From Flavonifractor plautii ATCC 29863 (GTDB lineage: Bacteria; Bacillota; Clostridia; Oscillospirales; Oscillospiraceae): DNA of 42,708 bases. The number at the start of each line of letters is the position of its first letter. Position 1 is the first letter of the stretch. The notes below the pieces were generated by a model. It searched no databases. It was not told where the DNA came from and was given only the letters and a program-made list of their open reading frames with translations. The translations under genes were made by a program, and so were the position numbers. The stretch is taken from assembly GCF_000239295.1 (NCBI RefSeq), contig NZ_JH417652.1, positions 41,157-83,864 on the forward strand, written 5' to 3'. This document shows positions 7,467-23,067 of this stretch, piece by piece.

Positions 7467-7472
7467 GACAGC

Positions 7473-7503
7473 GGCCCGCCGGGAGACCGGCGGGCCATTT
7501 TTT
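7473..7503 (+). terminator. rho-independent terminator of the CofE-like gene
   Basis: A 10-bp stem, GGCCCGCCGG/CCGGCGGGCC, with loop GAGA is followed by A and six T. Confidence 0.92.
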
Positions 7504-7563
7504 CAACTTTTTTCAAGTTTCAAAAAGTCCCTCAGCCTGTCGAAAAGACTTCTTCCACAGGCT

Positions 7564-7601
7564 AAAGCGCGTGTACGAAAACTACGTACACGCGCTTTTT
7601 T
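7564..7601. terminator. bidirectional terminator between convergent genes
   Basis: A 14-bp stem, AAAGCGCGTGTACG/CGTACACGCGCTTT, encloses a 4-nt loop extended by A-rich bases. T-runs on both sides allow use by the radical SAM gene (minus) and as backup for the CofE-like gene (plus). Confidence 0.8.
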
Positions 7602-7611
7602 CTGACCGTTG

Positions 7612-8994
7612 TTACTGGCCGCAGCCGGTGCTGCCACAGCCTGCGCACCCGGCGCAGCCGGGATGGGACTCGGACCACAGCTTGTCGGCCATGGGAGTCC
7701 AGTTGTCGGCATAGGGGTGGGTTTTGGCCGTCAGATGCTCCACGCTCTCGGGAGACTGAGGATCGGTGGAGTGGGCGCCCGTCTCGTGAACCATCTTCTC
7801 AATGAACTCCGGGTTTTCCAACATGGGGCAGGGGCGGAGCATGTTCTCGTTGAAGGGCTGGTTGTCATGGTAGGCCATGAACATGGGGGATTGCAGGCAC
7901 TCCAGCAGGCTCTTCTCCCGGATGTTGGAGTCGGAGTAGTGGATGAACACGCAGGGATCCACGTCGCCATTGGCGTTGATGTGCAGGTAGCGGCGGCCGC
8001 CGGCGATGCACCCGCCCACATACTCGGCGTCGTTCTGGAAGTCCATGGCAAAGATGCCCTTGGTCTCCCGCATGGCGCGGATGCGGCGGTAGACCTCGGC
8101 CCGCTGCTCGGGGTTGGGCATCAGCTCGGGGGCGGCGTCGTTGCCCACGGGCATGTAGTGGAAGAACCACACGAAGTAAGCGCCCAGATCCATGATCAGA
8201 TCGTAAAACTTCTCGCTGGTGATGTCCTTGTAGTTGACGCTGGTGTAGCAGGCGGAGATGCCGAAGGGCAGGTGGTGCTGCTTCAGCAGGGCCATGGCGT
8301 GGGTGACCTTGTCGTACACACCCTCTCCGCGGCGGGAGTCGTTGGCCTCCTCGAAGCCCTCCAGGCTGATGGCGGGGATAAAGTTGCCCACACGCAGCAT
8401 GTCCTGGCAGAACTCCTCGTCGATCAGGGTGGCGTTGGTAAAGGAGAGGAAAGCCGCATCGCTGTGCTTCTCGCACAGGGCGATCAGGTCCTTCTTGCGC
8501 ACCAGCGGCTCGCCGCCGGTGTAGATGTACAGGTAGATGCCCAGCTCCTTGCCCTGAGTAATGATGGAGTCAATCTCATCAAAGGTCAGGTTGAGCTTGT
8601 TGCCGTACTCCGCCGCCCAACAGCCGGTGCAATGCAGATTACAGGCGGAGGTGGGATCCAGCAGGATGGCCCAGGGAATGTTGCAGCCGTACTTCTTGCG
8701 CAGTTCCTCCTGCTTGGGCCAGCCCACCAGGTTTGCATTGACAAAGAAGTTGTTGAATATCGTCTTGAGCACACTGGGGTCGGTCTGGGTCCAGACCTTC
8801 TCAATGAGCTGGTGCCAACAGGAGTCCTTGTCGTTAATTACCTTATCAAATGCCTCCCGCTGGAGGGACAGGGTGTCGCCGGCAAACTTGTTGACCAGAT
8901 CCATGACCTTGCCCATGTTGTTCATCGGGTCCTTGTCCAGATAATCATACACCTTGGCCAGGCCGTAGCGCTTCAAACTGTCAGGAATCTTCAT
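7612..8994 (-). CDS. radical SAM protein with cysteine-rich C-terminal tail
   Basis: The 460-aa protein has the radical SAM cluster motif C118-x3-C122-x2-C125 (CNLHCTGC), followed by the SAM-binding IYTGGEP. Later cysteines, in VGGCIAGG, DPCVFIH and LRPCPML, may hold an auxiliary cluster as in SPASM/twitch proteins. The extreme C-terminus is CAGCAGCGSTGCGQ, an unusual Cys/Gly tail. An N-terminal helical region of about 100 residues precedes the barrel. The substrate is unknown and no precursor peptide gene is evident next to it. AAGGGG precedes the ATG at a good distance. Confidence 0.88.
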   Translation of the reverse strand: MKIPDSLKRYGLAKVYDYLDKDPMNNMGKVMDLVNKFAGDTLSLQREAFDKVINDKDSCWHQLIEKVWTQTDPSVLKTIFNNFFVNANLVGWPKQEELRKKYGCNIPWAILLDPTSACNLHCTGCWAAEYGNKLNLTFDEIDSIITQGKELGIYLYIYTGGEPLVRKKDLIALCEKHSDAAFLSFTNATLIDEEFCQDMLRVGNFIPAISLEGFEEANDSRRGEGVYDKVTHAMALLKQHHLPFGISACYTSVNYKDITSEKFYDLIMDLGAYFVWFFHYMPVGNDAAPELMPNPEQRAEVYRRIRAMRETKGIFAMDFQNDAEYVGGCIAGGRRYLHINANGDVDPCVFIHYSDSNIREKSLLECLQSPMFMAYHDNQPFNENMLRPCPMLENPEFIEKMVHETGAHSTDPQSPESVEHLTAKTHPYADNWTPMADKLWSESHPGCAGCAGCGSTGCGQ

Positions 8995-9468
8995 CTTGGT
9001 TTTCCCCTTTCACGGCATGTCATACCATTCATCGTTGCTACTATACCGCCGTTTTTGCAAAAGGAAAATAGACAAAACCCGCATCCTGTCCAAACTCTAG
9101 ACAAAAATGGCAGTTTGCTTAAAAGCAGTTTGGCTTTTGAAGTTTCTTTATTGCGTTTTGACAACCGTTTTTTATAATATTTAAAACCATAAAAAACGAT
9201 AGAGAATATTTTGAGGTGCACAGAAGGGACGGGAGGGAAATTCATTTCTCTGAATCAGAGGTCAATTAAGCAGTAAAGTTACAAAAAACTCTCAAGTTGT
9301 TATAAAAGTGTCTTAAAAGATTTGTGCTGTTTGTTTATTTTGTACTATAAATTTCGGCTATGTTTACATACTGACGAAACTTTGTTACTCAAATACAATT
9401 CACTTAACAAACAAAACAGTACCAGATGACACCGCAGGGCAGGGCCCCTGTATGGAAGGACCGCATAC
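8995..9468. other. AT-rich divergent intergenic region
   Basis: This 474-bp gap is much richer in AT than its surroundings. It holds a perfect inverted repeat CTCTGA-A-TCAGAG (9248-9260), a TTGACA box at 9158-9163 with a poor -10 element 16 bp on, and a better plus-strand promoter at 9322-9351. On the minus strand only a weak TATAGT -10 is seen before the radical SAM gene. I see no credible gene in it. It probably carries the control sites of the LacI-led cluster. Confidence 0.6.
9322..9351 (+). promoter_or_regulatory. candidate promoter of the LacI-led cluster
   Basis: TTGTGC (9322-9327) and TATAAA (9346-9351) are spaced by 18 bp. The first codon is 118 bp downstream. Other promoter-like boxes exist in the same AT-rich gap, so the choice is tentative. 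Confidence 0.45.
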
Positions 9469-10494
9469 ATGAGAGTTACGATGGAAGACATCGCAAGAAT
9501 GGCCGGAGTATCAAAAGCGACAGTTTCCAGAGTCGTAAACGGAATTGAACAGGGAGTCGGCCCTGAAACACGCAGACGCGTATTGCAAATTGTGAAGGAG
9601 ACGAACTACCGCTCCTACAGCCTGCCGAGCCAGAACCAGTCCAAGACTCTTGGGCTGATTATCCCGGATATCATAAACCCCTTTTTCGGTGAGCTGGTCA
9701 AGGCAATCGAGGGGGAGGCCACAGAGCAAGGGTACACCGTTCTGCTGGGAAACACAGATTTCTCCATGGAAAAGGAGGAGCGTTACCTCTCCATCTTCCT
9801 GGCCAAGCGGGTAGACGGCATTATTTTAGTGACAACAGCCCAGACCGCCGGAGAGCACTACCAGAGGCTGAAGAAGTACAGCGTGCCCTGTGTGCTGGTG
9901 GACCGTATGCTGGCGGGCGCCGAGTATACGGCGGGAATCTTTGTGGACAACTCCTACGCCCTTTTCATGGCGTGCAGCCTGCTCATTCAGCATCGTAACG
10001 AGAAAATCGCTTTGATCTCCGGTCCGCGAAACATCTCCACCTCGGTGGAGCGGATTCAGGGCTACCGGGATGCACTGGAGCAGTACCGTCTGCCGTTTGA
10101 GGAGCGGCTCATTAAATATGGCGACTACACCTTTGAAAGCGGATACCGGGCCATCATGGAGCTGGAGCGAGAGGGCACCCGCTTTACCGGAGTCCTAGCG
10201 GCCAATGATACCATGGCGCTGGGCGCCATTAAGGCGCTCAAGGAGCTGACTTACGCTATCCCGGAGGATGTGGAAATCATCGGCTTTGACAACATCGGCT
10301 TTTCTCAGCTATGTGACCCGCCTCTGGCCACCATTCAGCAGCCGACCATCGAAATGGGACGCCGGGCGGCGGATACGCTGATCCGGGCAATCGTGGGTAA
10401 GCCCATTGAAACCAAAAATATCCACCTCCAGCCCAAGCTGGTGGTGAGAGGCTCAGTCAAGACCATCTATGGCGAACGGATTCTATATGTATAA
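9469..10494 (+). CDS. LacI-family transcriptional regulator
   Basis: The 341-aa protein begins with the LacI helix-turn-helix MEDIARMAGVSKATVSRVVN. A periplasmic-binding-protein-like sensor domain follows, with the usual blocks GLIIPDIINPFF, DGIILVTT and TGVLAANDTMALGAI. LacI proteins bind palindromic operators and are released or recruited by a sugar, nucleoside or similar ligand. It heads a same-strand run of 13 genes and is the likely local regulator. GGAAGG precedes the ATG at 9469; an ATG at 9481 is also in frame. Confidence 0.95.
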   Translation: MRVTMEDIARMAGVSKATVSRVVNGIEQGVGPETRRRVLQIVKETNYRSYSLPSQNQSKTLGLIIPDIINPFFGELVKAIEGEATEQGYTVLLGNTDFSMEKEERYLSIFLAKRVDGIILVTTAQTAGEHYQRLKKYSVPCVLVDRMLAGAEYTAGIFVDNSYALFMACSLLIQHRNEKIALISGPRNISTSVERIQGYRDALEQYRLPFEERLIKYGDYTFESGYRAIMELEREGTRFTGVLAANDTMALGAIKALKELTYAIPEDVEIIGFDNIGFSQLCDPPLATIQQPTIEMGRRAADTLIRAIVGKPIETKNIHLQPKLVVRGSVKTIYGERILYV

Positions 10495-10564
10495 GCACAG
10501 CGGATCATCCGGCATCGGTGCCCCGGCGGGGGAAAGAATCTAGGAAGACGTAGGGGTGTTCTCA

Positions 10565-11488
10565 TTGAAAAAGATTTTGGTGGTAGGAAGCGCGAACGTC
10601 GACTTTGTGATCGGAGTACGGCAGGCCCCGGAGTTGGGCGAAACCATCCTGTGCCGCTCCTTCCGAAAGACCTGCGGCGGGAAGGGGGCCAACCAGGCGT
10701 ATGCCTGCGGGCGCCTGGGCGGGAACACCGCGTTCCTCAATGCGGTGGGAGATGACCCCCTGGGCGGTGAGCTGGTGCGAAATCTGCAACAGGCCAATGT
10801 GGACACCCGCGCAATAAGGACGGTGGACGGGGTATCCACCGGCATGGCGGTGGTCTGTGTGGATGAGAAGGGAAACAACTCCATAATTGTCATTCCCGGC
10901 GCCAATAACCTCTGCGATGTGGACTATCTGAGGCGGAACCGGGCGCGGTTTGAGGAGAGCGACATTGTGCTGCTCCAGATGGAGATCCCCTTTGAGAGCG
11001 TCTGCTATGCGGTGGAGCTGGCCAGTGGGCTGCACAAAACCGTCATTCTCAACCCGGCCCCCGCACCGGACAGCCTGCCTGATGAAGTATATGCGGGACT
11101 GGACTATCTGACCCCCAATGAGAGCGAATTCAAGCGCCTGACCGGCTGCCCGACCGATGAAGTGGAGGAGCTTGCGGTTCACTGCAAACCCCTGCTGGAG
11201 AAAGGGACGCGGAATATCATCATTACGCTGGGAAGCCGCGGTGCCCTGCATGTCAACCGGGAGGGGCATACGCTCTACCGCCCGCCCGAGGTACAGGCGG
11301 TGGATACCACAGCGGCAGGAGACACCTTTAACGCGGCGCTGGCCCGGGAGCTGGCGGACGGCCGCTCCACAGGGGAGGCGATCGTCTTCGCCAATATGGC
11401 GTCCGCCCTGGCAGTGTCCAGGGTAGGGGCACAGGATTCCATCCCATCGTATGAAGAAGTATTGGATTTTAAGAAGCGCATGGAGTGA
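10565..11488 (+). CDS. PfkB/ribokinase-family carbohydrate kinase
   Basis: The 307-aa protein has both PfkB signatures: GGKGANQAYACGRLGG (about 38-53) and DTTAAGDTFNAAL (247-259) with the catalytic Asp at 253. Such kinases phosphorylate sugars, nucleosides or Amadori products at a hydroxymethyl group; the substrate here is unknown. I choose the TTG start at 10565 because AGGGG ends 8 nt before it; an in-frame GTG at 10556 overlaps that SD. The stop lies a few bases before the ABC ATPase start, so the genes are tightly coupled. Confidence 0.92.
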   Translation: MKKILVVGSANVDFVIGVRQAPELGETILCRSFRKTCGGKGANQAYACGRLGGNTAFLNAVGDDPLGGELVRNLQQANVDTRAIRTVDGVSTGMAVVCVDEKGNNSIIVIPGANNLCDVDYLRRNRARFEESDIVLLQMEIPFESVCYAVELASGLHKTVILNPAPAPDSLPDEVYAGLDYLTPNESEFKRLTGCPTDEVEELAVHCKPLLEKGTRNIIITLGSRGALHVNREGHTLYRPPEVQAVDTTAAGDTFNAALARELADGRSTGEAIVFANMASALAVSRVGAQDSIPSYEEVLDFKKRME

Positions 11489-11494
11489 ATGCGG

Positions 11495-12472
11495 ATGAGC
11501 GACATCATTGTTAAGACCACCGGGCTGTGTGCAGATTTCAAGATCAAGGATCGGATGGTTCGGGCGGTGAACCGGGTTTCCCTGAGCCTGGAGCGGGGCA
11601 AGACGCTGGTGATATTGGGGGAGTCCGGCTCTGGAAAGAGCACCTATATGAAGGCGCTGCTCCGGATTCTGCCCAAGACAGCCGCCGTAGAGGGACAGGC
11701 GGAGTTTCTGGGAAATGACCTGTTCCGAATGAGTGAGAAGGAATTCCGGGATATCCGGGGCAACCGGATGGCCATGATCTATCAGGACTCTCTGTCCGCG
11801 CTGGACCCGATGTATAAGGTGGGCTATCAGATTGTAGAGACCATCCGGGCGCACTCCAGCCTGACAAAGGCAGAGGCCAGGGAGCGGGTAGAAGAGCTCT
11901 TCGTCAAGGTGGGTATCCCTTCGCCCAGGGAGCGGATGAACGCCTACCCACACGAGATGAGCGGCGGCATGCGCCAGCGGGCGGTCATCGCTATGGCGCT
12001 GTGCTGCAATCCCTGCCTGCTGCTGGCGGACGAGCCCACAACGGCCCTGGATGTCACCATCCAAAAACAGATTCTCAACCTGTTCTTGGAGCTGCAGGAG
12101 AGCGACCGCATGTCCATCATGATGGTGACCCACGACATCGGTGTGGCGGCCCAGGTGGCGGATCAGATCGCCATCATGTACGGCGGTATCATTCTGGAGT
12201 GCGGCGCCACCAGGCAGGTGCTGGAGACGCCGGCGAACCCCTATACCAAGGCGCTGATCGCCGCGCTCCCCAAGAGCGGCAACCGGGAGCGGCTGGTTGC
12301 CATCGAGGGACAGCCGCCCACCATTGTCCATATGCCGCCTGGATGCCCCTTTTCCAACCGCTGCGCCTACGCAACCGAGGCGTGCCGGCAGAGCGTTCCA
12401 GAGCTCAAGCCCATCGATGAGCACCATATGACGGCGTGTCATATGAATTTAGTAACGTCTGGAGGTAAATGA
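11495..12472 (+). CDS. Opp/Dpp-type ABC importer ATPase (OppD-like)
   Basis: The 325-aa protein has Walker [10 protein letters not shown], a Q-loop at [12 protein letters not shown], signature MSGGM, Walker B LLLADEP and the H-loop MVTHD. The C-terminal oligopeptide-transporter domain is present, with [17 protein letters not shown] and its clustered cysteines. It would energise uptake together with the OppF-like ATPase encoded four genes later. The ATG at 11495 fits the GGAG 9 nt upstream better than the ATG at 11489. The transporter genes are in the order D-A-B-C-F. Confidence 0.95.
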
Positions 12473-12476
12473 GGAC

Positions 12477-14099
12477 ATGAAACACGTGAAAAGATTCCTG
12501 GCGCTCTCTCTGGCGGCAGCCCTGTTGGCGGGCTGTGTCTCCTGCGGCAATTCGGATGAGAAAACCTCGCCCACCGGCGGCGGTTCCGGTGTGGACAGTA
12601 CCGGCGACGGCGGCACTCTGCGGATTGCGATGACCTGCGCGGCCCTGCCCAATACCGATTCCGAGCCCACGGAGGGGCAGGAGGGTTACCGCTTCGTCAG
12701 CTTCCAGCTCTATGATGCCCTGGTGAAGTGGGATGCGAGCTCGGAAACTGAGGCCGGCAAGATTATCCCAGGCCTGGCCACCTCCTGGGAGCAGAACCCG
12801 GAAAACCCCAAGCGGTGGACGTTCCATCTACGGGAGGGAGTCAAGTTCCACGACGGAACGGATTTCAATGCGGACTGTGTGATCTTTGCTCTGGACCGCG
12901 TGATGAATCCTGACTTTGAGTACTACAGCACCACCTGCGCCGCATCGGTGGGCAGCTTCTTGGCCAATATCGAATCCTATGCCAAGGTGGACGACTACAC
13001 GATCACCATTGACACTGTGCAGGACAACAACGCCTATCTGATCTACGATCTGCCCTATATCATGATTCCCTCCATGGGGGCGGTGAAGGAGAAGGGCGAC
13101 GGCTTTGCCGACGCCCCCGTAGGCTCCGGTCCCTTCCGGTTTGTCAGCAAGATCGCGGGCCAGGAGCTCGTCATGGAGCGAAACGAGAACTACTGGGGGA
13201 ACGTGCCGCAGATCAAGACACTGATCCTCAAGCCCATCTCCGACGCGTCGGCCCGCCTGGCGGCCCTCCAGTCCGGCGAGGTGGACTGGGCCGAGGTCGT
13301 TCCCGTGGAGTCCCTGGAGTCTCTGAAGTCCCAGGGCTATCAGGTCAAGCTGAACGACTACCCCCATGCGTGGCTTTACATCATGAACACGGAGTCCGGC
13401 CCCTTTGCAGATGCCCGCGTCCGGCAGGCTTTCAGCATGTCCATTGACCGGGAGGGACTGTGCAATGACATCCTTCAGGGTGTGGGCACACCACTGGCGC
13501 AGTTGATGTATCCAGGTTCTCCGTGGTATGCGGAGGGTGTGGAGGAGTATACCTATAACCCGGAGAGGGCGAAAGAACTGCTGGCCGAGGCCGGCTATCC
13601 CGACGGCTTTACCACGACCTTTGTCTGCCCCACCAGCGGCTCCGGCAACATGTTCCCCCAGATTATGAATGAGTACATCCAGAAGTGCGCCGAGGAGGTC
13701 GGTATCCACATTGAGCTGGATATGTCGGAATCCGAGCGGGTGTGGGACGTAATGAAGGTGGGCTTCAAGGATGAGTACGCCGATGTGGGCGCGCTCAACA
13801 CCTCCTTCTATACCATGTTCCCCAATGTGTTCCAGAAGTTTGCGGGCACGGGCGGCTCCTTCAACACCGGCAAGTACAGCAACCCGGAGTACGATGCCTG
13901 TATCGAGGCGGCCTATGCGGCCACGGACGAGGCGGAGTCCACCCAGCAGTTCATTGAAGCCGAGAAGATTTTTACCGAGGAGCTGCCCTGGGTGATCGTC
14001 TGCAACGACCGGAACCTGCGGGTCCTGGCCCCCAATGTGCAGAATTTTGCCCAGTCCCAGACCTGGTATGTCGATTTGACGACGGTTACCGTCGAGTAA
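12477..14099 (+). CDS. ABC transporter substrate-binding lipoprotein (SBP family 5)
   Basis: The 540-aa protein has a lipoprotein signal peptide with lipobox LLAGC (Cys20). A family 5 extracellular solute-binding domain follows, with the blocks WTFHLREGVKFHDGTDF and YNPERAKELLAEAGYPDGF. Family 5 proteins bind oligopeptides, but also nickel, glutathione, cello-oligosaccharides and opines, so the name does not fix the substrate. GGAGG precedes the start, 4 bp after the OppD-like stop. A strong hairpin follows its stop and may protect this part of the mRNA. Confidence 0.95.
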   Translation: MKHVKRFLALSLAAALLAGCVSCGNSDEKTSPTGGGSGVDSTGDGGTLRIAMTCAALPNTDSEPTEGQEGYRFVSFQLYDALVKWDASSETEAGKIIPGLATSWEQNPENPKRWTFHLREGVKFHDGTDFNADCVIFALDRVMNPDFEYYSTTCAASVGSFLANIESYAKVDDYTITIDTVQDNNAYLIYDLPYIMIPSMGAVKEKGDGFADAPVGSGPFRFVSKIAGQELVMERNENYWGNVPQIKTLILKPISDASARLAALQSGEVDWAEVVPVESLESLKSQGYQVKLNDYPHAWLYIMNTESGPFADARVRQAFSMSIDREGLCNDILQGVGTPLAQLMYPGSPWYAEGVEEYTYNPERAKELLAEAGYPDGFTTTFVCPTSGSGNMFPQIMNEYIQKCAEEVGIHIELDMSESERVWDVMKVGFKDEYADVGALNTSFYTMFPNVFQKFAGTGGSFNTGKYSNPEYDACIEAAYAATDEAESTQQFIEAEKIFTEELPWVIVCNDRNLRVLAPNVQNFAQSQTWYVDLTTVTVE

Positions 14100-14144
14100 G
14101 AGAACCCCGTCTCATAAGCGCTGTCATTTCCGGCAAAAGACTCT

Positions 14145-14176
14145 GGCCTGCGGCCAGTGAAACCTGGCCGCAGGCC
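14145..14176 (+). promoter_or_regulatory. intra-operon hairpin downstream of the binding-protein gene
   Basis: A perfect 13-bp stem (GGCCTGCGGCCAG/CTGGCCGCAGGCC) with a 6-nt loop lies between the binding protein and the permeases, without a T-run. Such hairpins often stabilise the upstream mRNA so that the binding protein is made in excess over the permeases; this role is inferred. Confidence 0.6.
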
Positions 14177-14198
14177 GCAGTATACAAGGGGAGTTAGT

Positions 14199-15140
14199 AT
14201 GGTCCGAGTTATCTTGAAACGAATAGGCCTGGCGTTCCTCACGCTCTTCGGTGTGACGGTTATTGTATTCGCCCTGCTGCAGATGATGCCGGGAGAACCC
14301 ATTGACAGCATTGTGCCTCTGGATGCTTCGGAGGAGCTCCGGCAGGTGATCATCGACCAGTATGGTTTTGACCAGCCACTCTATATGCAGTATTTCATGT
14401 GGCTGGGCAACGCGGTGCGCGGCAATTTTGGGAACTCTGTCAGCGACAACCGGCTCGTGCTCAGCGTGGTCAGCGAGGCCCTCCACAATACCCTGATTCT
14501 GGCGCTGGGGGCCAGCATCTTCGCGTTCCTGCTCAGTATCCTGATCGGTGTCTACAGCTCGTACCGGCCGAATTCCATCTTCTCCTGGATCGGCACGGTA
14601 TTCGGCATCGGCGGTATCAGTATTCCAAACTACTGCCTGTCATTGATCCTGATCGGTATCTTCTCCGTCACCCTGCGCCTGCTGCCGTCTACAGGCATGT
14701 ATACCAGTGGGGACTATACCTTCTCCTCCCTCATACAGCACCTGATTCTTCCCGCTATCGCGGCCGGCGCCATGACACTGGGGATTATGACGCGGATGGT
14801 GCGCAGCTCAGTCTCCGAGATGCGCAGCCGGAGCTTTGTCACTACCCTGCGGGCGAAGGGACTCAGTGAGCCGGCCATCATGCGGCATGTGCTGCGCAAC
14901 AGCTTTCCCACGCTGCTGACCGTGGCGGGCCTGCAGTTCGGCTACCTGATGGGCGGCTCCACGATGGTGGAAACCATTTTTTCCTGGCCGGGAATCGGCC
15001 TGATCATCTATCAGAGCATCTTCACCAGCGACTTTCCCGTGACCCAGGCGGCCATCCTGATTGTGGCGGCGATCTTTGTCAGCATCAACCTGCTCATTGA
15101 TCTGCTCCGCATTGTGGCAGATCCGCGCCTGAGAAAATAA
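14199..15140 (+). CDS. ABC transporter permease (OppB/DppB-like)
   Basis: The 313-aa membrane protein has the DppB layout: an N-terminal helix (IGLAFLTLFGVTVIVFALLQMMPG), a short external region, then about five further helices. The EAA-type loop reads TTLRAKGLSEPAIMRHVLRNS. It would form the membrane channel with the next permease. AAGGGGAG lies just before the ATG at 14199. An open frame reaching further upstream covers the hairpin and is not coding. Confidence 0.95.
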   Translation: MVRVILKRIGLAFLTLFGVTVIVFALLQMMPGEPIDSIVPLDASEELRQVIIDQYGFDQPLYMQYFMWLGNAVRGNFGNSVSDNRLVLSVVSEALHNTLILALGASIFAFLLSILIGVYSSYRPNSIFSWIGTVFGIGGISIPNYCLSLILIGIFSVTLRLLPSTGMYTSGDYTFSSLIQHLILPAIAAGAMTLGIMTRMVRSSVSEMRSRSFVTTLRAKGLSEPAIMRHVLRNSFPTLLTVAGLQFGYLMGGSTMVETIFSWPGIGLIIYQSIFTSDFPVTQAAILIVAAIFVSINLLIDLLRIVADPRLRK

Positions 15141-15170
15141 AGACCTGCGGGATACAAAGGAGTGATTGTT

Positions 15171-16064
15171 TTGCTGTCATCCATTGGCTCCAGAGCTGCG
15201 GCGGATCCGGAGGAGCTCCATTTCCGCAGGGAGGCGCGCAGCCGCTTTGTGCGGACCTTTCTCCGTTACCCGGCGGCCCTTCCCGCGCTGATCCTGTTCG
15301 TGATCGTGGTGCTGTGCGCCCTCGGCGCGCCGCTGCTCACCCAGTATACCCCCTTTGAGGGCAATGCGGCGGAGCGGCTGCAGGGCATCGGCACGGCCGG
15401 CCATCTGCTGGGAACAGACGAGCAGGGGCGCGACATCCTGACCCGCTGCCTGTACGGCGGGCGCCTGAGCCTGCTGATGGGCTTCCTGCCGGTGGCGCTG
15501 GCCACCATCGTGGGCAGTATCCTGGGGATCATTTCCGGCTATTTCGGCAAGGCCTATGCCCAGATCATCATGCGCACCCTGGATATTTTCTATGCGTTCC
15601 CCTCCATTCTGCTGGCCATCGCGCTGTCCTCGGTTCTGGGCTCGGGCCTGTCCAGCATCATCATTCCAATCGCCGTCATTCTGGTTCCGCCCATCGCCCG
15701 GGTGGCCGAATCTACCGTGCAGGATATCATGCCGGAGGACTTTATTGAGGCGGCGCAGACCTCCGGGGCCAGCCCACTGAAGGTTATCGTGTTTTTCATC
15801 ATACCGAACACCTTTGGGCGGATCTTCATCTACTGTACCACGCAATTCAGCGTCAGCATCCTGTCGGCCTCTGGCTTGAGCTTTCTGGGATTGGGCATTT
15901 CTCCCCCCACGCCGGAATGGGGCTCCATGCTGAACGCCCTGCGGCAGCAGATCTACATCAATCCCCTGATTACCATTATTCCGGGCCTGTTCATTTTTGT
16001 CACAGCCCTGAGTGTCAATATCATCTCAGACGGCCTGAAGGACGCCATGGAGGCCAACAGCTAA
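15171..16064 (+). CDS. ABC transporter permease (OppC/DppC-like)
   Basis: The 297-aa membrane protein carries the DppC features: a long first helix (ALPALILFVIVVLCALGAPLL), the block LLGTDEQGRDILTRCLYGGRLSL and the coupling loop EAAQTSGASPLKVIVFFIIPN. I choose the TTG start at 15171 because AAGGAG (15157-15162) ends 8 nt before it. The GTG at 15162 overlaps the SD. It pairs with the preceding permease. Confidence 0.94.
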   Translation: MLSSIGSRAAADPEELHFRREARSRFVRTFLRYPAALPALILFVIVVLCALGAPLLTQYTPFEGNAAERLQGIGTAGHLLGTDEQGRDILTRCLYGGRLSLLMGFLPVALATIVGSILGIISGYFGKAYAQIIMRTLDIFYAFPSILLAIALSSVLGSGLSSIIIPIAVILVPPIARVAESTVQDIMPEDFIEAAQTSGASPLKVIVFFIIPNTFGRIFIYCTTQFSVSILSASGLSFLGLGISPPTPEWGSMLNALRQQIYINPLITIIPGLFIFVTALSVNIISDGLKDAMEANS

Positions 16065-16106
16065 GCCCGCGCGGTATGACGGCGCGCCGTGATTGGAGAG
16101 CGTACA

Positions 16107-17120
16107 ATGAGCAAGATTTTAGAGGTCAACGACCTGTGCAAGTCCTTTGTGGTAAAAAAGCGCCTGCTGGGTGAAAACGACGTGGTTTCAGCAGTAAATC
16201 ACGTTTCCCTCGGCCTGGAGGAGGGGGAGGTGCTGGGCATCGTCGGTGAGTCCGGCTGCGGAAAATCCACGGTTGCGCGGCTGCTCCTTCACAGCATCCG
16301 GCCGGACAGCGGCACAATGAAGCTCTGCGGGAAGGAGTACGACATGGCCCATGCCACGGGGCAGGATGTGCAGACCTTTCGGAAGAATATGCAGATGGTC
16401 TTTCAGAACCCCTACTCCTCCCTGAACCCCAAGATGAATGTACTGCAGAACATCACCTTCGGCCTGACGGCCAATCAGGTGCCCAGAGATGAGGCATGCC
16501 GGCGGGCATACCGCTACCTGGACGCGGTTGGAATGCAGAAGTCCTTCCTCAACAAATACCCCAACAGCCTGAGCGGCGGGCAGCGGCAGCGCGTGGCGGT
16601 GGCGCGGGCCCTGGCAATGGAGCCTAAAATCATCCTGGCCGACGAGCCGGTGTCCGCACTGGACAAGTCGGTGCAGGCGCAGGTACTCAACCTGTTCCAC
16701 GACCTGCAGAAGGAGTTCGGCATTTCGATTATTTTTATCTCCCATGATCTGAGCGTAGTGGAGTACATGAGCGACCATATTGCGGTGCTCTACCTGGGCG
16801 AGGTCATTGAGTACAGCACCTCCGAGGAGCTCTATCACAACCCCAGGCACCCCTATACCAAGGAGCTGCTGCGCTCCATTCCCCAGATCAGCGGAGACGC
16901 CCGCCTAAGTACGGCCAACAGGGAGCCGCCGATCGAGCTGCCCAGCCCGATCAGGCCGCCCTCCGGATGCCGGTATCACCCCCGCTGCCCGTACCGGACG
17001 GAGAACTGCTCCAAGCATATTCCGGCGCCTGCCTTGGTGGGACGGGACCACATCGTGAAGTGTCACCGCTGCGCCGCACAGAATCAACCGATTGAACCGA
17101 TGGAAGGGAGCTTGATATGA
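16107..17120 (+). CDS. Opp/Dpp-type ABC importer ATPase (OppF-like)
   Basis: The 337-aa protein has Walker A GESGCGKST, Q-loop MVFQNPYSSLNPKM, signature LSGGQRQR, Walker B IILADEP and H-loop ISHDLSVVEYM. The C-terminal oligopeptide module ends PSGCRYHPRCPYRTENC. The ATG at 16107 follows TTGGAGAG. Its last codons overlap the next gene by 4 bp (ATGA), which couples the transporter to the first enzyme-like gene of the cluster. Confidence 0.95.
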   Translation: MSKILEVNDLCKSFVVKKRLLGENDVVSAVNHVSLGLEEGEVLGIVGESGCGKSTVARLLLHSIRPDSGTMKLCGKEYDMAHATGQDVQTFRKNMQMVFQNPYSSLNPKMNVLQNITFGLTANQVPRDEACRRAYRYLDAVGMQKSFLNKYPNSLSGGQRQRVAVARALAMEPKIILADEPVSALDKSVQAQVLNLFHDLQKEFGISIIFISHDLSVVEYMSDHIAVLYLGEVIEYSTSEELYHNPRHPYTKELLRSIPQISGDARLSTANREPPIELPSPIRPPSGCRYHPRCPYRTENCSKHIPAPALVGRDHIVKCHRCAAQNQPIEPMEGSLI

Positions 17121-17866
17121 AAAAGTACAAGATGCTGTTTGCCGGGGAGTCCTGGCTGACCCATAACATGGAGGTAAAGGGGTGGGACGACTTCTCGGTT
17201 GGCGGGTATGGAACGGAGATCGACCGAATCCATGCCGCGATGGACGAGTTTGCAGAGATCACCCACCTGCCCTCCCATCTGGTGGGAGAGAAATTCCCCT
17301 CTACGATGGAGGAGCTGAAGACGTATGATGTGGTGATTCTCAGCGATGTGGGGGCCAATACCCTGTTGCTCCACCCCCTGGTGTTTACCCAAAGCGTCCG
17401 TTTCCCCAACCGCCTACAGCTCCTGGCGGACTATGTAGAGCAGGGCGGCGCCCTGGGGATGATGGGAGGCTACATGACCTTCCAGGGCATCGGCGGCAAG
17501 GGCTGCTACCACGGTTCGCCCATCGAGAAGGCACTCCCGGTCGATTTTCTCCCCTATGACGACCGGCAGGAGCACCCGGAAGGCATTGATCTGAAGGTGG
17601 ACCCCCAGCGCCATCCGGCACTGAAGGGGCTGCCCGAGGAATGGCCCTATCTGCTTGGCTACAACAAGGCCGTAGCCAAGCCGGGGGCACAGGTGGCGGT
17701 GGAATACCAGGGAGACCCCATCCTGTCCTTCTATGAGTACGGAAAGGGCAGAAGCTTCGCTTGGGCCTCGGACTGCGCGCCCCACTGGATGCCCCCCGCT
17801 TTCTGTGAATGGGAGTATATCCACCTGTTCTGGAAGAACATGATCGACTGGGTGGTGCAGAGATGA
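17117..17866 (+). CDS. ThuA/class I glutamine-amidotransferase-like protein (PF07090-type)
   Basis: The 249-aa protein resembles the GATase1-like family PF07090. It starts with KMLFAGESWLTH, has YDVVILSDVGANTLL mid-way, and an elbow region EQGGALGMMGGYMTFQG. At that elbow, true class I amidotransferases have a nucleophilic Cys; here it is Gly, so glutamine hydrolysis is unlikely. Related ThuA-like proteins take part in sugar (trehalose, 3-keto-glycoside) use. A 4-bp overlap with the ATPase gene suggests co-translation. The reaction is unknown. Confidence 0.82.
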   Translation: MKKYKMLFAGESWLTHNMEVKGWDDFSVGGYGTEIDRIHAAMDEFAEITHLPSHLVGEKFPSTMEELKTYDVVILSDVGANTLLLHPLVFTQSVRFPNRLQLLADYVEQGGALGMMGGYMTFQGIGGKGCYHGSPIEKALPVDFLPYDDRQEHPEGIDLKVDPQRHPALKGLPEEWPYLLGYNKAVAKPGAQVAVEYQGDPILSFYEYGKGRSFAWASDCAPHWMPPAFCEWEYIHLFWKNMIDWVVQR

Positions 17867-17891
17867 CCGGCCGGAGAGAAGGGGCGGAACA

Positions 17892-18713
17892 ATGAAGGTA
17901 AAGGTTGCCGCCATACAGATGTCGGCGGACATCGGAGGGCGGGAGGCAAACGTGGAGCGCGCGGAGCGGCTGCTGATTCAGGCGGCCAGGCAGGGGGCCG
18001 ATCTCTGCGTGCTGCCGGAGCTGGCGCTGGATGAGTTTTTCCCGCTGTATAAGGACACCCGCTACTTTGCCTACGCGGAGGAGTTGGACGGGCCAACCGT
18101 CCGGCGCTTTCGTTCCCTGGCGGGGGAGCTGGGGATCTACTTGGCCCTTCCGCTGTTTGAAAAGAGTCTGATTGGTACCTACTATAATTCCCTGGTTCTG
18201 CTGACGCCGGAGGGGACGATCGGTGCGGTCTATCGGAAGGTACATGTACCCTGTACGCGCAGCTATGAGCGATACTATTTCACACCCGGACCGGAGTTTG
18301 TGGTGGCGGATACCCGGTACGGGAAGGTGGGATTGGCCATTTGCTACGACCGGCGCTACCCGGAGACCTGCCGTGAGCTGATGAAGAAGGGGGCCAGGCT
18401 GATTCTGATCTCCATCTCCAGCAGCATTATGCCGGGGGGCTTTTCCGAGCTGCCCGTCTTCGAGACGGAACTCAAGACCAGGGCCTTTGAAAACCAGCTC
18501 TTTCTCGCGGCCTGCAACCGCTCCGGGCAGGAGGGAGAATACACGTTCTTCGGCCACAGCATGCTCTTGGGGCCGGACGGCTCCGTACTGGCCCAGGCAG
18601 ATGAGGCGGAGAACGTGGTGGTGCTGGCAGAGATGGAGCTGGAGGACGCGGATAGGGCCCGGATCAACGGCCCGCTCCTGCGGGACCGCCGCCCGGAGCT
18701 CTATACCTGCTGA
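17892..18713 (+). CDS. carbon-nitrogen hydrolase (nitrilase superfamily)
   Basis: The 273-aa protein keeps the complete nitrilase-superfamily triad. Glu43 lies in LPELALDEF, Lys116 in YRKVHVP and Cys151 in AICYDRRYPE. These enzymes hydrolyse amides, N-carbamoyl groups or nitriles via a thioester. The sequence looks more like amidases/N-carbamoyl hydrolases than true nitrilases, but the substrate is not predictable. It is 25 bp after the ThuA-like gene and probably removes or opens an amide on the imported solute. Confidence 0.93.
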   Translation: MKVKVAAIQMSADIGGREANVERAERLLIQAARQGADLCVLPELALDEFFPLYKDTRYFAYAEELDGPTVRRFRSLAGELGIYLALPLFEKSLIGTYYNSLVLLTPEGTIGAVYRKVHVPCTRSYERYYFTPGPEFVVADTRYGKVGLAICYDRRYPETCRELMKKGARLILISISSSIMPGGFSELPVFETELKTRAFENQLFLAACNRSGQEGEYTFFGHSMLLGPDGSVLAQADEAENVVVLAEMELEDADRARINGPLLRDRRPELYTC

Positions 18714-18740
18714 TATAAATCAAAGAAATGAGGTAATCGT

Positions 18741-19871
18741 ATGGAATTCTCTTACTTTATGCCGGTCCGTCTGCTGTTTGGCGCCAATGTGATCGACCAA
18801 CTGGGCGCCACGGCCAAGAGCTATGGCACCCACGCCCTGATCGTGACGGGCCGCAGCAGCACGAAACGCTCCGGTCTGCTGGACCGCTCCATCGCCCTGC
18901 TGGAGGCCGCGGGCGTCCGCGCCACGGTATTCAATAAGGTGGAGCCCAACCCCCTGACCACCACGGTTATGGAGGGCGCGGCCCTGGCCAGGGAGCAGGG
19001 GTGCGACCTAGTCATCGGCATGGGCGGCGGCTCCATGATGGATGCGGCCAAGGCGGTGGCCTTCTGCGCGGTGAACGGCGGTGACGTGAATGACTATATC
19101 TCCGGTGGAAAGCAGGGTACCGGCTGCCTGCCCATTCTGGAGGTACCCACCACCTGCGGCACAGGGAGCGAGGCCAACCCCTTTGCGGTGCTGACCAACC
19201 CCGAGACCAAGGACAAGAAGTCCCTGTGGGGAGACCTGATCTATCCTAAAGTGTCCTTTATCGACCCTGAGCTGATGAAGACCATGCCCAAGGAGGTGCT
19301 GGCCTCGGTGGGCTTCGATGCCCTCTCCCACAACATGGAGGGCTACCTGGCCACCCGAAGCCAGCCCATTACCGACCAGCTTGCCCTGCACGCCATCCGC
19401 CTGACAGCCGGGAGCCTGCCCAAGGTGTACCACGGTGAGGGCACACAGGAGGACTGGGAGAACATCACCCTGGCCAGCCTGCTGGGCGGCATTGTCATCA
19501 ACACCGCCGGCGTGGGCGGCGGCCACGGGATGGAGCATCCGGTCAGCGGCATGTATAACGTGGTCCATGGAAAGGGACTGGCGGCCCTGACACCCCCCCT
19601 CTTCCGCCACTCTTACAACACCAAGCCGGAGCGTTACGCGGCCATCTCCCGTCTGCTGGGCGGCAAGGACGAGACCGACTGCGCGGAGGCGGTGGAGCGC
19701 TTCCTCAAGTCCATTGATCTGAACTGCAAGCTCCGGGAGCTGGGGGTGGAGGAGTCCGGAATCGACTGGATGACGGACAACTGCATCAACGTCTTTGCCG
19801 GAAGCATGCGGAATCATACCAAGGCGCTTACCCGGGACGAGGTAAAGCAGATCTATCTGGAGGCGTTTTAA
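18741..19871 (+). CDS. iron-containing alcohol dehydrogenase
   Basis: The 376-aa protein belongs to the group III iron-dependent dehydrogenases. The NAD(P)-binding block GMGGGSMMDAAKA lies near residue 95. Metal ligands are expected in FDALSHNMEGYL and the two His blocks GHGMEHPVSGMYNVVHGKGLA. Family members reduce aldehydes or keto groups, or oxidise alcohols such as propanediol or 4-hydroxybutyrate. Position in the cluster suggests oxidoreduction of a pathway intermediate. An SD-like AAATGAGG precedes the ATG. Confidence 0.93.
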   Translation: MEFSYFMPVRLLFGANVIDQLGATAKSYGTHALIVTGRSSTKRSGLLDRSIALLEAAGVRATVFNKVEPNPLTTTVMEGAALAREQGCDLVIGMGGGSMMDAAKAVAFCAVNGGDVNDYISGGKQGTGCLPILEVPTTCGTGSEANPFAVLTNPETKDKKSLWGDLIYPKVSFIDPELMKTMPKEVLASVGFDALSHNMEGYLATRSQPITDQLALHAIRLTAGSLPKVYHGEGTQEDWENITLASLLGGIVINTAGVGGGHGMEHPVSGMYNVVHGKGLAALTPPLFRHSYNTKPERYAAISRLLGGKDETDCAEAVERFLKSIDLNCKLRELGVEESGIDWMTDNCINVFAGSMRNHTKALTRDEVKQIYLEAF

Positions 19872-19932
19872 TCCGGCGGCCAGAGAAGGGGACCGCCCTT
19901 GCTGATAAATGATTGGAATGGAGGATACGGAC

Positions 19933-20268
19933 ATGCCCTGTATTGTTATGTATACCAATGTGGAGGTGCCCAAGGAGAAGGCCGAGGAGCTGAAAAAAGC
20001 CCTGGTGGTTTCCTGGGAGAAGCTTCCGGGCAAGAGTGAGCGGTGGCTCATGACCACCATCCGGGACAACACCACCATGTTCTTCGGCGGCAAAGATACC
20101 CCTGCGGCCTTTGTCAACTTCAAGATTCTAGGCAGCCTTGGCAGGGAGAACTGCGAGATCCTGAACGAGGAGTTCCTGACCGATGTCAGTCAGGTACTGG
20201 GTATTCAGAAGGAGCGGATCTTTGTGGCTCACGATGAATGTCCCTCCTGGGGCTGGGTCAAGAACTGA
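19933..20268 (+). CDS. MIF-family tautomerase homologue, copy 1
   Basis: The 111-aa protein aligns end to end with macrophage migration inhibitory factor. It has Pro as second residue (MPCIVMYTNVEVP), a Lys at the place of MIF Lys32 (LPGKSERWL), FFGGKDTPAAFVNFK for MIF AFGGSSEPCALCSL, and a Trp-Gly-Trp end. MIF Tyr95 and Asn97 correspond to Phe and Ala (ERIFVAHD), and the CxxC is missing. Removal of Met would expose the catalytic Pro1, so keto-enol tautomerisation is plausible, with an altered pocket. GGAGG precedes the ATG. Confidence 0.9.
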   Translation: MPCIVMYTNVEVPKEKAEELKKALVVSWEKLPGKSERWLMTTIRDNTTMFFGGKDTPAAFVNFKILGSLGRENCEILNEEFLTDVSQVLGIQKERIFVAHDECPSWGWVKN

Positions 20269-20294
20269 ACATTGCAGAAAGGAAGGTATTGCAT

Positions 20295-20669
20295 ATGCCC
20301 TGTATCATCATCAGGACCAATGTGGAGATTCCCAGCGACAGAGCAAAGGAGCTGAAAACTGCCCTGGCCGTATCATGGGAGAAGGTGCCCACCAAGCGGG
20401 AGCGCTGGCTCATGATCGTCATGGAGGACAAGCAGCAGATGTTCTTCAGCGGCAGGGATACCCCCGCGGCCTTTGTGAATTTTAAAATTCATGGGGACTA
20501 TGACATCGGCCCCAAGAACTGCGAGATGCTCTCCGAGGAGTTCATGAATGATCTGAGTCAGGTGCTGGGCATCCAGAAGGAGCGGATCTTCGTGGCCCAC
20601 GATGTGTGCCCCTCCTGGGGCTGGGTGGACGACCCGGATCCCAGAGCCTACGGCCCCGCGCCGGTCTGA
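20295..20669 (+). CDS. MIF-family tautomerase homologue, copy 2
   Basis: The 124-aa protein is clearly a duplicate of copy 1: PAAFVNFK, SQVLGIQKERIFVAHD and CPSWGWV are shared, and about two thirds of residues look identical by eye. Pro1 (MPCIIIRTNVEIP) and the Lys equivalent to MIF Lys32 are kept. It differs by a 2-residue insertion (DYDIG) and a Pro-rich C-terminal tail. MIF proteins are trimers, so the two could form a heterotrimer or act on successive intermediates. GGAAGG precedes the ATG, 26 bp after copy 1. Confidence 0.9.
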   Translation: MPCIIIRTNVEIPSDRAKELKTALAVSWEKVPTKRERWLMIVMEDKQQMFFSGRDTPAAFVNFKIHGDYDIGPKNCEMLSEEFMNDLSQVLGIQKERIFVAHDVCPSWGWVDDPDPRAYGPAPV

Positions 20670-20713
20670 GTGAACTGCAACAAACAATTACAATAGAAAG
20701 TGAGTGGATCAAT

Positions 20714-21094
20714 ATGGAGTACAAGTACAAGTGGTATATTCCCGACGCCTACCTTCATTCCCGCGGCACCGGCTACTTCACCAGCCATGAGGGCTGCGCC
20801 TTCATCAACGAGACCGACCGGGACGCCCATGTGCGCTTCACCTTCTACTTCCAGGATCGTGAGCCCATGACCGGCTATACCAGCGTGGTGCCTGCCCGCC
20901 GGACCAAGCATGCCCGGTTCGACCTGATGGAGAACGACAAGGGTGAGCCCGTTCCCATGAATGTCGGTTATGCCGTGGTTGTGGAGAGCGACATGGATAT
21001 GCCGGTACAGTTCAGCCACTGTGACACCTCCCAGCCTGAGCTGACCTTTACCACCACCATGGTCCCCCACATCACCCTGGACCGGGAGGACTAA
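20714..21094 (+). CDS. ASRT-family (Anabaena sensory rhodopsin transducer-like) protein
   Basis: The 126-aa protein matches the PF07100 fold. It begins with a Trp-Tyr-Ile-Pro segment, then FTSHEGCAFINETDRDAHVRFTFYFQDREP, the hallmark VPARRTKHARFD, and VVESDMDMPVQFSHCDT. Anabaena ASRT is a soluble beta-sandwich tetramer that couples to a rhodopsin. Most family members occur without rhodopsin and have been proposed to bind small sugar-like metabolites. None of the neighbours is a rhodopsin. It is the last gene before the terminator and may sense or carry a pathway intermediate. Confidence 0.88.
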   Translation: MEYKYKWYIPDAYLHSRGTGYFTSHEGCAFINETDRDAHVRFTFYFQDREPMTGYTSVVPARRTKHARFDLMENDKGEPVPMNVGYAVVVESDMDMPVQFSHCDTSQPELTFTTTMVPHITLDRED

Positions 21095-21105
21095 CCCCCA
21101 AAATA

Positions 21106-21157
21106 CATAGAAGAAGCGCACCGGCCGCCGGCTGGTGCGCTTCTTCTATGCATGCTT
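21106..21157 (+). terminator. rho-independent terminator of the 13-gene cluster
   Basis: A 17-bp perfect stem (CATAGAAGAAGCGCACC and its complement) with an 11-nt GC-rich loop is followed by CATGCTTTTT. It marks the end of the cluster. Confidence 0.88.
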
Positions 21158-21483: not shown

Positions 21484-22773
21484 TCAGTGTACGGGGAAGC
21501 TGTGCCGTGTGAGGGCGATCATCTCGCGTAGCTTTCCCTTCAGGAAGTGGATTCCCTTGCCGCTGGACAGTCCACCGAAGGTGGAGCTCTCCCAGGTCAG
21601 AGGGATAGATTCGCCGCTCTGGGCATCGAGCTCGAGCCGCTTGGGAAGATAGAAGGCCGTGCCGTCCTGCTCCTGAAGGTCGAAAAAGCACCTGTGAATG
21701 GCGGTAATGAAGTCCTCCCGTTCCGGAAGAGCGCCGGGGGCGAGAATGGAGGAACGCATGAACTCCGACAGCAGTCCGTATAGATCAAACAGGATGTCGA
21801 TTCCCATTGTTTTGGTCAGAACGTGCGCGGAACTGTCCCAGGCCTGCGGGTAACATGCCTTCCAGGCGGAAAAATAAGTCTCGATGGCCTCCACCCGGGC
21901 GGAAAAAGTGGTGTAGTTAAAGCCGTTCTGCAGGTTGATCTCGAGCCAATGCTCCAGCAGCTTCTGCATTTTGCTGGAGTTGACATAAGCCCGGGGCAGA
22001 GAGCGGGCACGGGGGCCGTCGAACATCTTGATCCGGTCATGAAAGAGGCCGGCCCGGCCATTGAGCTCGTCCATCAGGTCAAAGGCGGTGTTCTCCCGGT
22101 CGGACATCAGGCCGGAGAGGTTGCGGATGGCGTTGGTATGTATGGCGGAGGGCTTCTCCTGGTTGCAGTTGATCTCAGCAAAGGAGGCCGCCATCTTGCG
22201 CAGATCCAGATCCAAGTAGACGCCGGTGAGGAAGGGGTAGTCCAGCTTGCCCGCCGCATAAGCCCCTTCGGTGCGGTGATGGCCGTCGATCATATAGCCC
22301 AGCAGTTCCTGCTCTGGGGCTAGAAGATAGCCCGCCTCGTCTGCCGCACAGGCTGCGATGTGCTCACGGTAACGGTGGAGAGCGACGGTCAAAAGGACAA
22401 TGCCGGAGGAGTCGCTGGTGCGGCTCTCCAGAGGGGCAACAGTTATATAGGGGCTGTCCTGGCATCTGAGGATGATAACAATGGCGTTGGGAAAGCCATA
22501 CGGGCCGCTGGAGAGGCGCTCCTCAATTTCAGAGACCTTTTTCATGACCAGAGCGCGCTGAATGCCCTCTGGGTTTTCCAGGCTGCGGGGGAGGCGGCAG
22601 ATCATAGCCTGTAGGAAGCCGGTGGTGAGAGCGCAGGTGTAGAGTTTGAGGTGGTCGCTCTGATCCACACGGAGCATGGGAATGGACATTGCATCCCCGT
22701 GCTGCGCAATCATCCTGTCCAGCATGGACAGGATATCTGCCTTGGTCTTGCTCTTTGTAAACATCCGCTTCAT
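21484..22773 (-). CDS. orphan DGQHR-domain (DndB-like) protein
   Basis: The 429-aa protein has the DGQHR core in variant form, DGHHR (163-167) in GYMIDGHHRTEGA. The companion motif INCNQEKPS (201-209) follows VYLDLDLRKMAASFAE. The fold is shared by DndB, the regulator of DNA phosphorothioation clusters, and by stand-alone proteins in mobile or defence contexts. No dndA, C, D or E gene is present here. It has its own promoter with repeated elements, and sits between the cluster terminator and tRNA-Leu. The function is unknown; DNA binding or defence is an inference. Confidence 0.78.
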   Translation of the reverse strand: MKRMFTKSKTKADILSMLDRMIAQHGDAMSIPMLRVDQSDHLKLYTCALTTGFLQAMICRLPRSLENPEGIQRALVMKKVSEIEERLSSGPYGFPNAIVIILRCQDSPYITVAPLESRTSDSSGIVLLTVALHRYREHIAACAADEAGYLLAPEQELLGYMIDGHHRTEGAYAAGKLDYPFLTGVYLDLDLRKMAASFAEINCNQEKPSAIHTNAIRNLSGLMSDRENTAFDLMDELNGRAGLFHDRIKMFDGPRARSLPRAYVNSSKMQKLLEHWLEINLQNGFNYTTFSARVEAIETYFSAWKACYPQAWDSSAHVLTKTMGIDILFDLYGLLSEFMRSSILAPGALPEREDFITAIHRCFFDLQEQDGTAFYLPKRLELDAQSGESIPLTWESSTFGGLSSGKGIHFLKGKLREMIALTRHSFPVH

Positions 22774-22979: not shown

Positions 22980-23067
22980 GCGCGAGTGGTGGAATTGGCA
23001 GACTCGCTAGATTCAGGTTCTAGTGTGCATTACGCACGTGCGGGTTCAAGTCCCGCCTCGCGCACCA
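22980..23067 (+). tRNA. tRNA-Leu (anticodon CAG)
   Basis: An 88-nt class II tRNA with encoded CCA. The acceptor GCGCGAG pairs with CTCGCGC. The anticodon stem CTAGA/TCTAG encloses loop TTCAGGT (CAG). The variable arm is TGTGCATTACGCAC and the T-arm GCGGGTTCAAGTCCCGC. A strong promoter precedes it and a terminator follows. Confidence 0.97.

Follow-up and report, generated by a model that had tools for sequence, protein, structure and literature searches.

A rare, apparently complete catabolic operon of thirteen genes in Flavonifractor plautii joining a ribokinase, an Opp-type importer and a PF07090 protein

A stretch of 42,708 nucleotides from Flavonifractor plautii ATCC 29863 (contig NZ_JH417652.1, positions 41,157 to 83,864, forward strand; in the following referred to as the window) harbours thirteen open reading frames on the + strand between positions 9469 and 21094, none of which contains an internal stop codon. 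They code for a LacI-family regulator, a ribokinase, the five subunits of an Opp-type ATP-binding cassette (ABC) importer, a protein of the Pfam family PF07090, a nitrilase-superfamily C-N hydrolase, an iron-type alcohol dehydrogenase (Fe-ADH), two tautomerases of the MIF family and a small-molecule-binding protein of the ASRT family. The cluster is a rare, inherited and apparently complete catabolic operon. All thirteen genes recur in the same order in a second genus, and a ribokinase-like kinase accompanies PF07090 at many other loci.

Genes and signals of the operon

The first gene (9469-10494) encodes a regulator with LacI and Peripla_BP domains above the Pfam cut-offs, which resembles CytR, PurR, RbsR and CcpA and stays under the curated equivalog cut-off of each. 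The subsequent kinase (10556-11488) passes the curated ribokinase model TIGR02152 with 334.1 bits (cut-off 299.65); on another ribokinase model, PRK11142, its 294.8 bits fall short of the threshold of 341. Its best solved relative is ribokinase 1gqt (8e-65), which we take to be the E. coli enzyme. The three other kinase matches in the host genome are just 25-36% identical to the operon kinase, which by these values is the only close ribokinase encoded there. The PfkB label of the first-pass annotation of this DNA is hence sharpened to ribokinase, with ribose kinase activity predicted by homology above a curated cut-off. Genes for a complete Opp/Dpp-type importer follow, as judged from Pfam: the OppD-type ATPase (11489-12472; ABC_tran, oligo_HPY), one solute-binding protein of family 5 (OppA, 12477-14099; SBP_bac_5, 5.4e-85), two permeases, OppB (14199-15140; BPD_transp_1) and OppC (15162-16064; BPD_transp_1, OppC_N), and the OppF-type ATPase (16107-17120; ABC_tran and oligo_HPY in the frame from 16089, start codon 16107 picked by inspection). 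The N-terminus of OppA reads as a signal sequence with a lipoprotein-like cysteine.

The next product (17117-17866) had been labelled ThuA, a name that had to be given up: the ThuA model (PF06283) yields 22.4 bits, under its cut-off of 33.4, and PF07090 (GATase1_like) yields 291.9 bits (5.5e-87) against a gathering threshold of 27. The solved relatives 3soz (6.1e-62) and 2gk3 (9.1e-59) are the Salmonella proteins STM1381 and STM3548. Members of the family occur in Clostridia, Proteobacteria, Actinomycetes and haloarchaea, and no function for PF07090 was found in the literature search. STM3548 is described as having no known function in the accessible part of one report (PMC13432705), and STM1381 is tabulated among computationally predicted type III effectors in the corresponding part of a study from 2009 (PMC2668754). 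An alignment of 38 homologues has no cysteine column at a conservation of at least 92%. Since the near-invariant columns contain no cysteine, the conserved catalytic cysteine of class I glutamine amidotransferases is absent, and this identity was rejected for the protein. Invariant in 38 of 38 homologues are D77, D149, E152, D219 and H223; we infer that the acidic residues among them, together with the motif D219...H223-W224, are candidates for the active site. Foldseek likens the predicted structure to GH42 and ThuA-like folds; as the mean model confidence (pLDDT) is 66, fold matches outside the group of sequence relatives count as weak.

The nitrilase-type hydrolase (17892-18713; CN_hydrolase, 5.1e-58) carries the motifs PELALDE at residue 42, RKVHVP at 115 and CYDRRYPE at 151; the catalytic triad of the superfamily is Glu-Lys-Cys. 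Assignment as N-carbamoylputrescine amidase (TIGR03381) failed with 192.5 bits against a cut-off of 410.25. Both domains of the Fe-ADH (18741-19871; Fe-ADH, ADH_Fe_C) exceed their cut-offs, and all 17 listed NCBIfam models for Fe-ADH equivalogs, lactaldehyde reductase included, stay under theirs. The first MIF protein (19933-20268) reaches 29.7 bits and the second (20295-20669) only just passes with 22.8, the cut-off being 22 for either. Proline right after the initiator methionine has a role in MIF tautomerases and directly follows it in all four MIF copies of the window and its second carrier. The last gene (20714-21094) codes for the ASRT protein (PF07100, 110.1 bits vs 25; solved matches 2ii7, 5.8e-20, and 1nc7, 2e-13). 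ASRT proteins are proposed to act as intracellular small-molecule sensors of sugar operons, with the signature SHEshChhN contributing a ligand-contacting His and Cys, according to the part of the source available (PMC2739507). The window's protein reads SHEGCAFIN and thus keeps the His; with alanine in sixth position, in place of the ligand cysteine, its ligand is likely to differ.

Intergenic spacings amount, in gene order, to 61, 0, 4, 99, 21, 42, -4, 25, 27, 61, 26 and 44 bp. The short gaps described initially are thus present, whereas the several 4-bp overlaps reduce to a single one between oppF and the PF07090 gene. Equally confirmed is the count of thirteen genes in one direction ending at a strong intrinsic terminator (21106-21150), which has a stem of at least 20 pairs with a T-run behind it (-40.1 kcal/mol, z -8.0). 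A second strong hairpin (14140-14181; -34.2 kcal/mol, z -6.3) lies in the gap between oppA and oppB. It has no T-run behind it on the + strand, and the scan calls it terminator-like on the - strand. At the same position the second carrier has a hairpin of -44.0 kcal/mol with a different sequence. Hairpins set the level of the binding protein in other importer operons, and we read this one as a device that may adjust the amount of OppA relative to the rest of the operon. Promoter-like + strand sites lie inside the operon at 15997-16024 and 18157-18185. Such sites are weak evidence given the totals of the signal scan (promoter-like 15 vs 7.1 expected, terminator-like 17 vs 12.9 expected), and the operon is likely read as one transcript, internal promoter-like sites notwithstanding. 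A LacI-type operator could not be assigned: if up to 2 mismatches are allowed, the candidate TGNAANCGNTTNCA matches the window 14 times (12.6 expected) but never within 8990-9469, and no upstream inverted repeats of the same sequence were found to be common to the window and the second carrier.

Beside the operon, a frame of 429 aa without Pfam match occupies the - strand (21484-22773); it had no match in 10 related genomes in a search run without positive control. A gene for tRNA-Leu (cag) at 22980-23067, about 1.9 kb downstream of the operon, represents a possible integration point.

A second carrier and the distribution of the gene set

The neighbourhood search in other genomes, suggested in the first-pass annotation as a check, revealed the full set of thirteen, its gene order unchanged, in G033, an Oscillospiraceae genome from a different genus. 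In this one other genome found, the enzyme genes do travel with the importer, as anticipated. Protein identities range from 64% for the kinase to 94% for ASRT. Similarity at the DNA level starts at the lacI start codon (9469) and stops at 21099, 5 bp past the ASRT stop; it falls into two pieces, with 12376-12607 at the oppD/oppA junction unaligned, and nothing outside the operon matches in the 19.5-kb stretch compared. Because the same genes occur in the same order in another genus, with homology bounded by the operon, the gene set is more than a chance assembly. Every one of the thirteen genes is under purifying selection, with ratios of non-synonymous to synonymous substitution (dN/dS) between 0.04 and 0.27. 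Selection is strongest on ASRT (0.038) and the second MIF gene (0.045), followed by OppB (0.071), the first MIF gene (0.080) and PF07090 (0.095); Fe-ADH (0.202) and the kinase (0.269) form the upper end. The set is therefore one inherited unit. The two MIF proteins are 68% identical to each other and 87-93% to their respective counterparts in G033, from which it follows that the pair predates the split of the two operon copies.

The complete set was found nowhere beyond these two genomes by a scan of genome contigs with two peptide patterns, which can miss diverged copies, and it hence looks like a rare accessory operon. Matches to PF07090 were obtained in 12 of 400 genomes of the family, where the window's own (100%) and that of G033 (83%) are followed by the next at 50%. 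Among 391 genomes of the class, 57 had matches: the window's own, seven full-length ones at 42-48% identity, and partial ones that almost all lie inside much longer frames. ASRT had no match in the 19 same-genus genomes searched. In the class, 44 other genomes have a MIF match; the stretches inspected, from 20 of them, lack the operon neighbourhood, a few giving isolated weak hits to nitrilase, LacI, Fe-ADH or OppF. The neighbourhood is also missing from nine ASRT loci within the order, with weak Opp-ATPase or LacI matches at two. Viral contigs, searched with two peptide patterns each, contained no relatives of MIF or PF07090.

Acquisition of the operon by horizontal transfer is possible. A radical-SAM protein encoded beside it is 71% identical between window and G033, a value that does not clearly set the operon apart in similarity from this one neighbour. 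Nine same-genus genomes were searched with the radical-SAM neighbour; in seven, similarity to the window breaks off at about 9124-9131, some 340 bp before lacI, and the sequences then diverge, their stretches matching nothing in the window directly beyond. This places the operon at a variable site of the genome, with no clean insertion site seen.

Neighbourhoods of PF07090 and the proposed pathway

The genes around PF07090 were compared at 36 other loci (17 from Clostridia, 19 from plasmids) and at 29 control loci (9 ASRT, 20 MIF), the latter not matched for catabolic operons. For the main counts the window's own proteins served as queries, and every occurrence within the stretch retrieved, which measured up to 19.9 kb, was counted; several loci are cut by contig ends, and the 19 plasmid loci include rhizobial near-duplicates. 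Overall, 194 plasmid records matched PF07090, 21 of which were fetched, and two regions read later stand outside the counts. CP125156.1 (Klebsiella, 5.37 Mb), filed as a plasmid, is probably a chromosome, judging by that size.

A ribokinase-like (PfkB) kinase is present at 20 of the 36 PF07090 loci and at none of the 29 controls (19/36 within 8.5 kb using a wider reference set), which establishes the recurring link between the two families; a LacI gene accompanies 25/36 versus 2/29. C-N hydrolases within 8.5 kb, counted with the wider set, occur at 14/36 versus 1/29 loci, an enrichment biased by references that came partly from the same loci. They comprise M20 deacylases, hydantoinase/carbamoylase-type enzymes, amidohydrolases, a nitrilase and M24 proteins. 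Importers are of the ribose, Bmp/PnrA or Opp type, and of the DMT type in Salmonella. The narrow literature search yielded no characterised pathway with the window's set, and no paper bringing together at least 4 of 6 terms for the mix itself, in line with the initial statement that the mix fits none known. Yet the mix has kin: other bacteria repeatedly group LacI, an importer and a ribokinase-like kinase with PF07090, often along with a C-N hydrolase. This partnership, with its exchangeable hydrolase, amounts to a concrete function hypothesis for the family.

Several loci offer hints to the substrate. One clostridial cluster (L118, genome G237, 2489-12258) combines a Bmp/PnrA importer, a ribosylpyrimidine nucleosidase above its cut-off (477.6 vs 459), an M20 deacylase, PF07090, a PfkB kinase and LacI, and looks like a nucleoside pathway that includes PF07090. 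Arthrobacter, Palleronia and Rhodococcus plasmids furthermore have annotated nucleoside hydrolases at a distance of 6 to 8 kb from PF07090. In Salmonella, the neighbour of STM3548, STM3547 (RikA), acts as a ribose kinase both in vivo and in vitro, and its gene set has been put forward as a possible route for using an unknown carbon source, as far as the accessible part of the report goes (PMC13432705).

On these grounds the operon is tentatively viewed, at somewhat less than an even chance, as an inducible catabolic unit for a ribose-containing, probably N-linked compound, nucleoside-like or a ribosyl-amide. LacI would repress the genes as long as neither the compound nor a breakdown product is available, and the Opp-type importer with its own binding lipoprotein would take the compound up. 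The PF07090 protein would attack the molecule at its sugar end, with removal of ribose as its most likely task. It is a candidate for ribose release because the host genome, searched among ribosidases for IU-type nucleoside hydrolases alone, has none of that type, a scope that counts against the reading. The ribokinase would feed ribose, as ribose 5-phosphate, into the pentose phosphate pathway. On the remainder, the nitrilase-type enzyme would hydrolyse an amide, formyl or carbamoyl group, the two MIF proteins might catalyse keto-enol or imine-enamine interconversion, and the Fe-ADH may reduce (or oxidise) the aldehyde so formed, a step that would fit a gut bacterium living by fermentation. 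ASRT could bind a pathway metabolite in the cell and tune an enzyme or the importer. We infer every reaction and the substrate class from sequence, the ribokinase step being best supported. The initial theme of phosphorylation, C-N hydrolysis, redox chemistry and tautomerisation fits the predicted enzymes, with the sugar narrowed to ribose for the kinase, while the chemistry itself stays predicted; as a whole, the earlier interpretation is partly supported.

A bolder version, which is unlikely, regards PF07090 as an unrecognised enzyme family freeing ribose from N-ribosyl amides or ring-opened nucleosides. The operon would then encode the whole anaerobic route for a single compound of this sort, from uptake via ribose release and phosphorylation, deamidation and tautomerisation by a MIF pair that maybe forms mixed trimers to aldehyde reduction, with ASRT as sensor inside the cell.

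A number of observations weigh against assigning the operon to a ribose compound. The full gene set exists in only two genomes. At 16 of the 36 PF07090 loci the fetched stretch is without trace of a ribokinase-like kinase, and the PfkB kinase of L118 stays under the ribokinase cut-off (246.8 vs 299.65). The authors of the RikA report consider, in the part available, that the ribose activity of STM3547 is possibly off-target (PMC13432705). PF07090 also lies beside an L-rhamnose isomerase and in sugar ABC clusters (L145 and L147, from the same bacterial family), and in haloarchaeal and allose-type clusters without PfkB kinase; in view of these contexts, ribose is not its sole partner. Finally, the wider module does not inform the second half of the operon, the components of which are nearly absent from the other PF07090 loci: nitrilase occurs at 1/36 (controls 1/29), Fe-ADH at 0/36 (controls 2/29), and the first MIF protein and ASRT at 0/36 each.

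The sugar contexts lend themselves to a different, rather unlikely explanation. Here the substrate would be a sugar, or a derivative of one, that has no N-riboside bond (a pentoside, deoxysugar conjugate, sugar lactam or aldonamide); PF07090 would process or bind the sugar, and the nitrilase would take off a side-chain amide. The association of PF07090 with L-rhamnose isomerase, an allose-type operon and a xylose-isomerase-like TIM barrel fits this proposal, as do its GH42- and ThuA-like model (mean pLDDT 66) and the link of ASRT to sugar operons drawn in the available part of PMC2739507. Nitrogen-bearing substrates are, however, indicated by the unrelated C-N hydrolase families that recur beside PF07090 and by the nucleoside hydrolases or Bmp-type importers in several of its clusters.

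The phylogenetic tree of PF07090 groups the window and G033 with two further genomes, G518 and G727 (support 92/85, below the tool's star), nested in a ten-row group (97/95). The G727 locus encodes a Bmp/PnrA-type importer, LacI and an amidohydrolase, and that of G518 an Opp importer, LacI, a PfkB kinase, a SIS protein and an M24 protein. The binding proteins of G518 and the window are 24% identical, so that their Opp importers need not share a recent origin. The combination of PF07090, PfkB and SIS in G518 is compatible with breakdown of glycated (Amadori-type) amines or amides, where the kinase would phosphorylate the attached sugar like fructoselysine kinase and PF07090 or another enzyme would then split the product. 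Agrocinopine binders exist among the family-5 binding proteins, and pTiChry5 encodes a distant PF07090 homologue in the vicinity of a fructoselysine-6-kinase-like gene, a SIS protein and a hydantoinase/oxoprolinase pair; this homologue, though, forms the longest branch of the tree, and a LysR gene separates it from those genes. With a window kinase scoring 334.1 bits on ribokinase but 56.7 on fructoselysine 6-kinase, and no SIS protein found in the cluster by Pfam, Amadori chemistry is improbable here.

The near-absence of the second half elsewhere (one nitrilase at 36 other loci) and the internal promoter-like sites could alternatively mean that two halves merely share a promoter, namely ribose-type uptake (LacI, ribokinase, Opp, PF07090) and an unrelated detoxification set (nitrilase, Fe-ADH, both MIF proteins, ASRT). 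Such an arrangement is likewise improbable: two genera keep both halves in unchanged order and with short gaps, homology is bounded at the ends of the whole set, and the genes under strongest selection, ASRT and the second MIF gene, belong to the second half. A single catabolic unit for a ribose-containing compound stays the favoured, if tentative, reading. The operon ties the widespread PF07090 family to ribose metabolism and renders its role testable. As an importer of its own is encoded, screening a single binding protein for ligands could identify the substrate, and the operon could also show the roles of MIF tautomerases and ASRT in an anaerobic gut bacterium.

Comparison with known systems

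The rikA (STM3547)-STM3548-STM3549-STM3550 set of Salmonella and relatives, as given in the available part of its description (PMC13432705), shares with the window a PfkB-family kinase beside PF07090, ribose kinase activity being predicted for the window's enzyme. Its DMT transporter and phosphotriesterase-like protein are not among the thirteen genes of the window, which has LacI, the Opp importer, nitrilase, Fe-ADH, two MIF proteins and ASRT instead.

Plasmid clusters of Alphaproteobacteria and Pantoea (L057, L059, L060, L114, L136, L138, L142) likewise hold PF07090 and a PfkB-family kinase in 7/7 cases and LacI in 5/7. An ABC importer (7/7, ribose-type) and a hydrolase (5/7, M20 or "Zn-dependent") are common to them and the window as well, though of different types. 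In contrast to the window, they contain phosphotriesterase-like and BtpA/SgcQ proteins (7/7 each) and partly TenA (4/7), and lack Fe-ADH, MIF and ASRT.

Plasmid clusters of Arthrobacter crystallopoietes and Rhodococcus pyridinivorans (L134, L139) combine PF07090, LacI, a ribokinase/PfkB kinase, an amidohydrolase and one or two tautomerases, together with aldehyde dehydrogenases. The window's slots of ribokinase, PF07090, amidase, tautomerase and dehydrogenase are here filled partly by other families; the tautomerases, for example, belong to short frames, 62-65 residues in length, annotated as "tautomerase family", among which the first MIF protein of the window has no match. Not among the window's thirteen genes are an LLM-class flavin-dependent oxidoreductase, a phosphoribosyl pyrophosphate (PRPP) synthetase and a nicotinate phosphoribosyltransferase. 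Taken with PF07090, LacI, the PfkB-family kinase and a HAD phosphatase, the latter two read like a ribose phosphate cycle. Both clusters are presumably of the pyridine-degradation type.

A stand-alone ASRT domain in a sugar operon is also known from Thermotoga (TM1070), but the ASRT sugar operons encode other enzymes, and the window's ASRT has Ala for the signature ligand Cys. Taken together, the operon is a variant of a partly reported, unexplained LacI-ribokinase-PF07090 module to which a second half has been added, and this half, consisting of nitrilase, Fe-ADH, the MIF pair and ASRT, was seen at none of the other PF07090 loci compared, apart from one nitrilase.

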